From NCBI GenBank assembly GCA_009838525.1, contig VXRJ01000018.1:645087-709086 (forward strand): DNA of 64,000 bases, written 5' to 3'. This DNA is from Acidobacteriota bacterium. Its GTDB lineage: Bacteria > Acidobacteriota > Vicinamibacteria > Vicinamibacterales > UBA8438. Positions 21,888 to 24,620 of this stretch are shown piece by piece (within the stretch, counting starts at the first letter, position 1; each line of letters begins with the position of its first letter). Below the pieces are notes generated by a model, which was not told where the DNA came from, made no database searches, and saw only the letters and a list, made by a program, of their open reading frames with translations. The translations under genes were made by a program, and so were the position numbers.

Positions 21888-22293
21888 CTGGATCGAGTCC
21901 GCGCGCTTCGAACCACTGGTCCCGCCAGAGCGCTTCCGCTTCGTCAATCTCCTCCTCGCTCAGACCGAAGTGGTGGCCGAACTCGTGGATCACCGTCTCG
22001 ACAATCATGTCGCGCACAGCATCCTCGTCTTCGGCATCCACCAGGATCGGCTCCCGGAAGATGGTGATGCGATCCGGCAACATGCCGCTCATGCTCCATT
22101 CACGTTCCGTTAACGGCGTTCCTTCGTAAAGCCCGTACAGCGTGTCGGGAGGCGTAATGTCGAGCTCGGCGAGCGTCTCCGCAGACGGACGGTCCTCCAC
22201 CACCAGCACCACGTTCTCCATCAACTCGCGCAACTCTTCGGGGATACGCCGCTGCGCGTCGGACACCAGCTCTCCAAACCGCGCGCTGGTCAT
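21859..22293 (-). CDS. Zincin-like metallopeptidase family protein
   Basis: This is a 144-residue protein with a zinc-site HExxH motif, VIHEFGHHFGLSEEEI, near residue 107-122, followed by an acidic C-terminus. The upstream half has LYGLYEGTPLTEREWSMSG and LPDRITIFREPIL, typical of the small predicted zinc metalloprotease family often found beside ksgA or RNA genes. The ATG at 22293 overlaps the nth stop (ATGA). The protein appears cytosolic and its substrate is unknown. Confidence 0.88.
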   Translation of the reverse strand: MTSARFGELVSDAQRRIPEELRELMENVVLVVEDRPSAETLAELDITPPDTLYGLYEGTPLTEREWSMSGMLPDRITIFREPILVDAEDEDAVRDMIVETVIHEFGHHFGLSEEEIDEAEALWRDQWFEARGLDPDEAEDTSDR

Positions 22294-23006
22294 CGATGCC
22301 CCGCCGCCTGCCGCCCGTCTCGTTCGACCATCGTCGGGTTTGCGGCGTACGCGCAATCCGAACGGGCGCCGCAACGGTCACAGAGCGGTCTAGGCCTGCA
22401 GATCCTCCGCCCGTGCAGGATGAACGAATCCGACGCGACGGTCCACTTGGTGCGCGGAAGGAGCCGGCAGAGCGCCGTCTCGGCGGCGACCGGATCGTCG
22501 GTCGCGATAAGACCGAGCCGGCGCGTGACGCGCAACACGTGCCGATCAACCGGGAAGCCCGGGATTCCGAACGCATGCCCGAGGACCACGTTGGCGGTCT
22601 TGCGGCCGACACCCGGCAGCCCGACGAGATCGTCCATGGAGGGCGGAACATCCCCGCCATGGCGTTTGACGAGCGCGCCCGCCATGCCAAGCAGCGCGCG
22701 TGTCTTCGACCGGAAGAAGCCGGTGGTCCGGATGAGCCGCTCGATTGTCTCAGGTCGCGCACGAGCGAGCGCCGACGCGTCCGGGTAGCGCCGGAACAGC
22801 GCCGGCGTCACCTCGTTTACCCGCGCGTCCGTGCACTGAGCCGACAGGATCGTCGCCGTCAACAGCTCGAACGGCGTCGCGTAGCGCAACTCCGTATCAG
22901 CTCCAGGATGGAGTCGCTCCAGCGCTCGCAGGATGCGTCGCGCGACTGTCTTCGACACCCGCACCGGCGCCTCAGAGGCGCCCGCCTGCTTCTCAGTGGA
23001 CGGCAT
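22290..23006 (-). CDS. nth: Endonuclease III (DNA glycosylase/AP lyase)
   Basis: This is a 238-residue base-excision repair enzyme for oxidised pyrimidines. It has FELLTATILSAQCTDARVNE, the helix-hairpin-helix LPGVGRKTANVVLGHAFG whose Lys is catalytic, the catalytic Asp in FPVDRHVLRVTRRLGL, and the 4Fe-4S site with Cys spacing C-x6-C-x2-C-x5-C in ICRPRPLCDRCGARSDC. The N-terminus overlaps the end of the DUF3467 gene by 14 bases. It sits in a unit headed by the lexA-like gene, so repair regulation is plausible. Confidence 0.96.
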   Translation of the reverse strand: MPSTEKQAGASEAPVRVSKTVARRILRALERLHPGADTELRYATPFELLTATILSAQCTDARVNEVTPALFRRYPDASALARARPETIERLIRTTGFFRSKTRALLGMAGALVKRHGGDVPPSMDDLVGLPGVGRKTANVVLGHAFGIPGFPVDRHVLRVTRRLGLIATDDPVAAETALCRLLPRTKWTVASDSFILHGRRICRPRPLCDRCGARSDCAYAANPTMVERDGRQAAGHR

Positions 23007-23307
23007 CGCGGGGCGGCGTCACTTTGGGTGGCGACTCGCTGAAGTTGCGCAGATGGTTCTGCAGCGCCGCAATCAGGTTGGGGATGAACTGCGCCGGCAC
23101 GACAATCTGCGCGCGAACCGGCGCCCGAAGCTGCCGATTCGTCTCGGCCCGCCGCACGTCGCTCTCGGTTGGCGGTTGAACTTCACAGAAAGTAAGCGTG
23201 AAATCATACGGCGTGTGAGAAAGCGCGCAAAAGTTCGAGTAGAAACGGGGCGCGTCACCCGGTTCGCCCGGCACGACGGTGAAGTTGATTTGCTTGCGTT
23301 CAGCCAT
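22993..23307 (-). CDS. DUF3467 protein
   Basis: This is a 104-residue cytosolic protein recognised as DUF3467 by its layout: APRFYSNFCALSHTPYDFTLTFCEV followed by RAQIVVPAQFIPNLIAALQNHL. The function of the family is unknown. The start is set by the strong ribosome binding site GCAGGAGA six bases before the ATG. It lies 44 bases after the lexA-like gene and overlaps nth, so it is probably part of the same unit. Confidence 0.88.
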   Translation of the reverse strand: MAERKQINFTVVPGEPGDAPRFYSNFCALSHTPYDFTLTFCEVQPPTESDVRRAETNRQLRAPVRAQIVVPAQFIPNLIAALQNHLRNFSESPPKVTPPRDAVH

Positions 23308-23351: not shown

Positions 23352-23960
23352 TCAGTATGTTCGCATGACACCAATGACGACCCCTTGCACCTGCACGCGC
23401 CCGGCGTCGACTGCGCTGGCCCCGACGGCAGGAGTCGCCGCTCCCAGGTGAATACGCTGGCCCCGCTGGCGGAAACCGCGCACCGTCACCGCCTTCCTGT
23501 CGATGAGGGCCAATACGAGGTCGCCATTCCTTACGCCTTTTCGCTCAGCGATGATGACGATGTCCCCGTGGCGAATCTGCTCCTCGAGCAACGTGTCGCC
23601 CCTCACGGCGAGCGCATAGAGATCGCTCTCGCGGGCGAGATCTTCCGGTACTGCCACCGTCTCTCGTGGGAGCACAGCGTCTATCGGCATACCGGCCGCC
23701 AGGTAACCAAGCAGTGGGACATCGACCGCGCGCGCGCCGGTCCGCGCCGGTAGCAACGTGATCGCTCGACTCCGGTTCCAGGACCGCTTGATGAATCCCT
23801 TGTCCTCCAGATTCGTCAGGTGTTTGTGCACGGTGGCGAGCGAGGAGAGGCCGAAGCGCTGGCCAATCTCCTCCAGACTCGGCGGGCGGCCCTCCCGGTC
23901 GATGCACTCCCGCAGGAAGTCGAGGATTTGTCGTTGCCGACGTGTCAGAGCCGGTTGCAC
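23352..23960 (-). CDS. lexA: LexA-like repressor lacking the self-cleavage dyad
   Basis: This is a 202-residue protein with LexA architecture. A winged helix at residues 1-70 has the recognition region PSLEEIGQRFGLSSLATVHK, followed by an S24-type domain. The scissile Ala89-Gly90 is kept (YLAAGMPID). However, the catalytic Ser of the family (GDSM/GMSM) is Thr123 in VRGDTLLEEQI, and the catalytic Lys (VTVK) is Arg161 in AVTVRGF. Both codons are unambiguous. The GTG at 23960 follows GGAG by 9-10 bases and lies 16 bases after TACACT. It heads a unit with DUF3467 and nth. RecA-stimulated cleavage is not expected. It may be a constitutive or otherwise tuned repressor. Confidence 0.88.
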   Translation of the reverse strand: MQPALTRRQRQILDFLRECIDREGRPPSLEEIGQRFGLSSLATVHKHLTNLEDKGFIKRSWNRSRAITLLPARTGARAVDVPLLGYLAAGMPIDAVLPRETVAVPEDLARESDLYALAVRGDTLLEEQIRHGDIVIIAERKGVRNGDLVLALIDRKAVTVRGFRQRGQRIHLGAATPAVGASAVDAGRVQVQGVVIGVMRTY

Positions 23961-24014
23961 GAGGGTCTCCGGTCGGAGTGTATCCCACCGCGCGGCGGCG
24001 GTTCGGCAGCGTGG

Positions 24015-24020
24015 TACAGT
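24015..24020 (+). promoter_or_regulatory. -10 element TACAGT for the gene at 24027 (leaderless geometry)
   Basis: TACAGT ends six bases before the GTG at 24027, so the transcript would begin at the start codon. It lies in a 66-base region divergent from lexA, whose own TACACT is on the other strand at 23982-23977. No LexA operator of the GAACN4GTTC or GTTCN7GTTC types is visible here. Confidence 0.55.
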
Positions 24021-24026
24021 GAGAGC

Positions 24027-24620
24027 GTGCCGTGGCTGATGGCCATCGCGGTAGGGGCGGCAATCGCGAGCGCCGGTCAGACTGGGACGCTCAGCGCGGC
24101 GGACGGGCGGGCGGTCGAAGAGGCGCTCGACCAGATCCTTCTCAACGCGGCGACGGAACATACGACGGGCCGGCCACGAACGGTAGCGATCGCCGAGCGT
24201 TCCCTCAATGCGTGGTTCCGCTTTCAGGGAGCCGATGGCTTCCCCCCCGGCGTGACCGACCCGGAGCTCGCGTTCGAGGGGGCGGGCCGCCTGATCGCTC
24301 GCGCGACGGTCAACCTCGACGATCTTCACGCGGAAGAATCGGAGCGCGGCCTTTTCGACCCCCTTCGTTATCTGAGCGGTCAGTTGCCAGTCACTGCGGT
24401 TGGGCTCGTGCGGGCGCAGGACCGGACCATCCGTGTCGACATCGAATCGGTTGAAGTGGGCTCGGTGTCCGTGCCCGCCACCCTGGTCCACGAGCTCGTC
24501 CGGTACTACACCCGTTCCGACAGCCAGCCCGATGGCATCGATCTGACCGACACGTTCGACCTGCCGTACAGCATCGAGGCGGTCCGCATCGAGCCGCGCC
24601 AGGTGGTGGTGGTGCAATAG
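24027..24620 (+). CDS. Exported or membrane-tethered protein of unknown function
   Basis: This is a 197-residue protein. The N-terminus (VPWLMAIAVGAAIASAGQTG) looks like a short signal peptide. The mature part has no recognised domain. A helix-rich region (AVEEALDQILLNAATEH) is followed by beta-rich VTAVGLVRAQDRTIRVDIE and VSVPATLVHELVRYYTRS. The GTG start is chosen because TACAGT ends six bases before it, and no ribosome binding site is seen. It ends three bases before recG. I cannot assign a function. Confidence 0.65.
   Translation: MPWLMAIAVGAAIASAGQTGTLSAADGRAVEEALDQILLNAATEHTTGRPRTVAIAERSLNAWFRFQGADGFPPGVTDPELAFEGAGRLIARATVNLDDLHAEESERGLFDPLRYLSGQLPVTAVGLVRAQDRTIRVDIESVEVGSVSVPATLVHELVRYYTRSDSQPDGIDLTDTFDLPYSIEAVRIEPRQVVVVQ

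Follow-up and report, generated by a model that had tools for sequence, protein, structure and literature searches.

What becomes of a LexA repressor when both residues of its self-cleaving dyad have been replaced? The question is raised by lexA1, a gene within a 64,000-nucleotide stretch of DNA (hereafter ‘the window’) from a bacterium of the Acidobacteriota (order Vicinamibacterales), which a sequence-only reading had described as a LexA homologue with Thr and Arg in place of the catalytic Ser and Lys, an intact winged helix and possibly a rewired regulatory role. Here we compare the window genome (G000; 4.29 Mb, 38 contigs, 96.85% complete, draft) with 59 relatives. A LexA match at E up to 0.001 is found in 57 of these 60 genomes and, as one of them (G021) has a paralog alone, a lexA ortholog is present in 56, window genome included. 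The window genome is the sole member of its genus in this sample, and its family is represented by 28 genomes, 27 of which have a match. The features discussed are collected in Table 1.

Table 1. Features of the lexA1 locus and of the second lexA locus in the window genome; positions are those of the window unless a contig or locus is named.
Feature	Position	Strand	Remarks
lexA1	23352..23960	-	LexA ortholog, dyad replaced (Ser->Thr123, Lys->Arg161); 202 aa, GTG start
Codon 123, ACG (Thr)	23592..23594	-	Catalytic Ser column; Ser in 54/54 distinct orthologs
Codon 161, CGC (Arg)	23478..23480	-	Catalytic Lys column; Lys in 54/54 distinct orthologs
Codons 89-90, Ala-Gly	23691..23696	-	Scissile bond site, retained; coordinates calculated from 23960 start
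Codons 30-65, helix-turn-helix and wing	23766..23873	-	0/26 near-invariant columns changed; coordinates calculated from 23960 start
lexA1 upstream region	23961..24460	-	Without family direct-repeat operator; best matrix score -12.3
DUF3467 protein gene	22993..23307	-	Conserved neighbour between lexA and nth
nth, endonuclease III-like (HhH-GPD)	22290..23006	-	Conserved neighbour
lexA2, second LexA	G000:C10:2299-2883		37% identical to LexA1
ImuB-like gene behind lexA2	L089:307-1740 (G000 contig C10)	-	~80 N-terminal residues fewer than relatives’ ImuB

The family assignment holds. The lexA1 frame runs through 202 residues from its GTG start with no internal stops in the window translation, and its product matches the NCBIfam lexA model TIGR00498 over its full length (165.2 bits, cut-off 110.95), contains both the LexA_DNA_bind (PF01726) and Peptidase_S24 (PF00717) domains, and occupies the orthologous gene position, such that score, domain content and synteny agree on a true LexA ortholog. 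The best structural matches of a predicted model (pLDDT 80.5) are LexA crystal structures, the superposition being good per domain only and poor for the whole two-domain chain (rmsd about 16 A). The third-position GC content of lexA1 (0.757) is normal, lying between those of ksgA (0.742) and nth (0.807). The DUF3467 gene adjoins lexA in 52 of the 54 relatives’ loci, as it does in the window, and nth lies near lexA in 34 of the 54, a count limited by flanks of about 1.5 kb; the unit with nth that had been proposed for this locus is thus borne out, with the DUF3467 gene in between. Since the order lexA–DUF3467–nth is shared with the relatives, we take the window gene to be the primary LexA, LexA1.

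The replaced dyad is equally secure. Solved LexA structures, used as references in an alignment, have their catalytic Ser and Lys at the positions of Thr123 and Arg161 and their scissile bond at Ala89-Gly90; the codons and coordinates given by the sequence-only reading are right. Of the hallmarks of a self-cleaving S24 Ser-Lys LexA, the protein therefore lacks the catalytic dyad and keeps the Ala-Gly bond, which is present in all 54 distinct orthologs as well. Ser and Lys occupy the dyad in 55/55 other orthologs from the same order (the 54 distinct sequences and a partial one, L222), and column 124, Leu in LexA1, is Met in 54/54. Such invariance of the ortholog columns in our alignment rules out chance or alignment error as the source of Thr123 and Arg161. 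That the pair might prove to be conserved among relatives was not borne out: neither residue occurs at the dyad in any of the 55 orthologs, and the replacement is private to the window lineage. A wider distribution among distant relatives was likewise rejected, as visual inspection of the alignment showed Ser and Lys at every one of 13 further LexA loci on named contigs; the closest of these, from an Acidobacteria MAG (L037), encodes a protein identical to that of L011 and is excluded from the counts. Arg is a poor general base, harder to deprotonate than Lys, and Thr is a bulkier nucleophile than Ser, for which reasons self-cleavage of LexA1 at neutral pH seems unlikely. Thr or Arg substitutions in LexA have been worked on; no paper about them turned up in the literature searched. 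Separately, an XRE-HTH and S24-like regulator on another contig of the window genome (C31; L006:1036-1782, +) has the Ser motif SDAM, by eye with Ala for Ser, and is perhaps a second S24 protein of this genome whose sequence lacks the nucleophile.

The dyad is part of a broader divergence. LexA1 has 43 residues found in no ortholog, where the maximum for any of the 54 orthologs is 18 and the median 1, and changes at conserved positions include S123T, M124L and K161R together with four in the RLQPAN stretch (R171H, Q173G, P174A, N176T). Mean identity to the 54 orthologs is 0.49 for its C-terminal domain (others 0.74) and 0.73 for its N-terminal domain, where the others average 0.89, and its terminal branch in the LexA tree measures 0.661, the next longest being 0.271. 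The controls behave differently: mean identities of the window proteins are 0.797 vs 0.809 for RecA (25 relatives), 0.608 vs 0.641 for DUF3467 (52 relatives) and 0.648 vs 0.674 for Nth (33 relatives), and the terminal branch of the window RecA (0.130) is the third longest of 26. The acceleration in the window lineage is specific to LexA, with RecA, Nth and DUF3467 near normal. It also spares particular parts of the protein: 17 of 90 near-invariant ungapped columns are changed, none of them among the 26 of the helix-turn-helix (HTH) and wing vs 17/64 elsewhere (Fisher p 0.002), and none of the 43 private residues falls within residues 30-65. The winged helix, described earlier as looking intact, is thus under constraint. 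None of the seven near-invariant columns of the last C-terminal strand is changed either. Conservation of the HTH together with this strand suggests that a DNA-binding dimer may still be under selection, and we infer that LexA1 binds DNA without cleaving itself.

To what would it bind? In the relatives, the lexA promoter carries a site of the form TTGAyNTTCGCcTTTtNTTTGCrTA, a direct repeat of period 11 set between promoter-like boxes (loci L008-L036 and L050-L074), which suggests that TTYGC-N6-TTYGC is the predicted order-wide LexA1 operator and that the relatives’ lexA is autoregulated. A matrix of this operator scores 18.8 or more upstream of lexA in 53/54 distinct relatives, the exception (L028) lying 191 bases before a contig end. 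It was trained on 51 of the scored rows, L037 included, so the scores of those rows are partly circular; three rows outside the training set also reach 18.8 (L018, L056, L062), and for these and for the window the result is not circular. The same half-sites, as TTCGCTTGACATTCGC, lie in the recA promoter of relatives (exact in 6/25, with one mismatch in 3 more). At 8/13 loci read (L209, L210, L212-L215, L220, L221) they immediately precede a pair of genes, first ImuA-like and then ImuB-like, which are named there from RecA-model matches and likeness to cassette genes. No published report of a TTYGC-N6-TTYGC LexA operator was found in the literature searched, nor a dedicated study of LexA in Acidobacteria, which is not proof that none exists. 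At two further loci (L217, L218) a LexA1-type site, TTCGCTTTTTGTTCGC, lies beside a gene that we take, from its motifs, to belong to the radical SAM family; its promoter was dropped as a window comparison, the window genome having only a 37% identical partial match.

This operator is gone from the window lineage. A scan of the lexA1 upstream region, extended 20 bases into the gene, found no family operator, the best score (-12.3) lying below the mean for the shuffled stretch (-9.9; maximum 6.7), and the autoregulation through the family operator expected of an SOS master regulator was thus not found in the lexA1 promoter, where a new, unrelated operator is conceivable. Nor was the family operator found at recA of the window genome, where an SOS regulator would be expected to control a repair gene. 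Genome-wide, the lexA-form operator with up to one mismatch is absent from the window genome, and 57/59 relatives (57/60 genomes searched) have one or more copies; the other two genomes without it, G032 and G048, are also without a LexA match. The former belongs to the same order and is 97% complete; it has recA and yields no LexA match within the E limit of 0.001, a possible case of complete LexA loss in another family. In the RecA tree, a single-gene tree for which support values are not quoted, the window genome is sister to genus g2, followed by g9 and g6. The exact LexA1 site is absent from the recA promoters read in these three genera, and the four g9 genomes have 1, 1, 1 and 3 lexA-form sites, from which it is plausible that the LexA1 regulon was already shrinking, at an undated point, before catalysis was lost.

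Searches of the window genome for present targets returned no more than background. The lexA-form pattern with up to two mismatches gave nine sites vs 16 for the reversed control, seven of the nine within predicted ORFs, and the generic TTYGC-N6-TTYGC pattern gave 22 vs 22, with 21 of the 22 inside predicted ORFs and the remaining match (L190) near a contig end; this generic pattern is too loose to inform in most relatives as well. The suggestion of a rewired regulator is therefore half upheld: the old SOS wiring is lost at lexA1, at recA and genome-wide at up to one mismatch, and new wiring was not found by these pattern searches.

The window genome does have a second, canonical LexA, as had been proposed as a check on the first. 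LexA2 has intact Ser and Lys (motifs VRGESM and TVKTF), as do all 13 aligned second LexA-like proteins of relatives (L085 lies outside the alignment). Downstream of lexA2 follow an ImuA-like gene (NF033429 at 35 bits, where the cut-off is 150) and an ImuB-like gene, a diverged member of the Y family, whose product aligns with the ImuB beside the relatives’ LexA2 and lacks, in frame, about 80 N-terminal residues, so that the mutasome, or the LexA2 branch, may be altered or impaired. The putative LexA2 operator, ATACAAATGTAT-like and palindromic, overlaps a -10-like box. It occurs at one place in the window genome, at lexA2, and recA accordingly appears, on predicted operators, to be under neither repressor. 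Several relatives pair LexA2 with a fully canonical LexA1 (e.g. G007, G008, G010), and on these grounds we rejected the idea that LexA2 alone brought about the LexA1 loss.

We consider it fairly probable that LexA1 is the vertically inherited primary LexA of this lineage, in which LexA1 lost RecA sensing and LexA2 kept it, leaving LexA1 a RecA-blind DNA binder. In the relatives, LexA1 most likely occupies TTYGC-N6-TTYGC at lexA, joined in some of them by recA and imuA, and RecA-stimulated self-cleavage presumably clears it away. The window lineage no longer has this operator at lexA1 or recA, and its imuA-imuB lies behind LexA2, whose operator is different and palindromic. An uncleavable LexA repressor would normally block SOS. 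With its known SOS operators gone, and thus no SOS gene dependent on its release, an uncleavable LexA1 would cease to carry this cost, and Ser, Lys and much of the pocket could diverge, which would explain both losses together. LexA1 would most likely still be a DNA-binding dimer, given its conserved HTH, wing and C-terminal strand, acting as a regulator blind to RecA, and RecA sensing would now lie with LexA2. What the compared sequences themselves show is the replaced residues, which recur in no ortholog, the disappearance of the operators, a second LexA and a conserved HTH; that LexA1 binds DNA and fails to cleave itself, how the changes were ordered and what function it may have today are matters of inference. 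This explanation draws on one genome in draft assembly. Against it speak the acceleration of the N-terminal domain as a whole, the empty search for new targets, which leaves the conserved HTH with no site to account for it, the shortened ImuB-like protein, and the relatives in which LexA2 coexists with a canonical LexA1. A fuller handover, in which the operators were dismantled first and the scissors lost next, with the intact dimer then recruited to a new regulon (through another recognition pattern or signal) and a LexA2 mini-regulon carrying the remaining SOS, is a tentative elaboration that we would on balance doubt.

Of the alternatives, the one that survives best is that LexA1 is a decaying orphan, its operators gone, functionless and drifting neutrally toward a pseudogene. 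Catalysis, autoregulation and genome-wide operators have indeed been lost together, both domains are accelerated, and the target search came up empty. However, the 202-codon frame is intact with normal GC3 (0.757), and changes fall in none of the 26 HTH and wing columns and none of the seven C-terminal strand columns vs 17 of the 57 remaining (the strand grouping is post hoc), which speaks against neutral drift, and we regard decay as unlikely though worth holding in mind. Quite improbable, in our view, is that LexA1 still cleaves itself with a Thr nucleophile and an Arg general base, perhaps slowly or at high pH only. Both substitutions are chemically conservative, the Ala-Gly bond is kept, and a reference title in PMC4759255 reports pH-dependent, RecA-independent self-cleavage of the Anabaena LexA. 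Against this, Thr or Arg stands at the dyad in 0/55 orthologs, the adjoining invariant Met is altered too, as is the RLQPAN stretch, and autocleavage uses a deprotonated Lys according to PMC10020695. Arg is harder to deprotonate. The regulatory sites of LexA1 are, moreover, gone regardless of whether it can be cut.

Intermolecular LexA cleavage occurs, and a second S24 protein, LexA2 for instance, might cut LexA1 in trans and so keep it damage-responsive; the kept Ala-Gly bond and the retention of 8/10 near-invariant cleavage-loop columns would fit. The loop is, however, indistinguishable from the rest of the domain in this respect (2/10 vs 10/31 columns changed) and the two LexA proteins are just 37% identical, making cleavage in trans highly improbable. 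A sequencing, assembly or binning artefact, conceivable for a draft of 38 contigs that is the single genome of its genus, is scarcely credible given an 885-kb contig, conserved neighbours, an open frame, a RecA that groups with the family, and private residues scattered over 43 positions, not just two.

The preferred reading, of LexA1 as a RecA-blind DNA binder beside a sensing LexA2, bears on how SOS systems evolve. Models of SOS evolution, as given in PMC8565304, have the primary LexA lost while a diverged paralog takes over. What the sequences document here is a dyad lost in a single lineage, from which the ancestral LexA1 operator has also gone and in which a canonical LexA2 is present. 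This is apparently an in-between state: sister genera have a canonical LexA1 with its operator, and the window lineage lacks sensing residues and operator, keeps the DNA-binding domain and has LexA2 alongside. The order of events, operators first and scissors second, thereby becomes testable, and the Acidobacteriota would be a second bacterial phylum, besides the cyanobacteria, with a natural LexA probably unable to cleave itself.

Among known systems, a close one is the LexA of Synechocystis sp. PCC 6803, which according to PMC3091678, PMC7567884 and PMC4759255 lacks both Ala-Gly and the nucleophilic Ser and has a non-SOS role. As described there, it too is a natural LexA without its nucleophile, presumably non-cleaving and untied from SOS genes, and its reported binding site, CTA-N9-CTA, is a direct repeat, in kind like the site of our relatives. 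The two differ in that Synechocystis LexA has lost Ala-Gly and has Asp for Ser, whereas LexA1 keeps Ala-Gly and has Thr for Ser and Arg for Lys; in addition, the window genome has a second canonical LexA, and its ancestral operator and the loss thereof are traceable. Anabaena LexA, according to PMC4759255, shows no cleavage at physiological pH. The arrangement with two repressors recalls Pseudomonas putida, for which PMC3901139 describes LexA1, LexA2 and a lexA2-imuA-imuB-imuC cassette: there as here, two LexA proteins have separate regulons, with LexA2 over a mutagenesis cassette, but the LexA1 of the window lineage is without catalytic dyad and operators.

The Bacteroidetes model of PMC8565304 runs from duplication through motif divergence to loss of the primary LexA, and the same text counts 17 LexA motifs, with direct repeats that include GTTC-N7-GTTC, also of period 11. 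Common to both are a duplicate repressor whose motif has diverged and the later loss of the primary LexA; yet that model, as described there, deletes the primary gene, and this lineage retains it with its HTH intact and its dyad missing. Nor has LexA2 retaken recA, and LexA2 is only a putative duplicate of LexA1. Close, too, is the canonical LexA1 of the family and order itself (55 orthologs), with which the window protein shares gene order, HTH, fold and scissile bond, while Ser, Met and Lys, together with the promoter operator, have been lost in the window lineage only.
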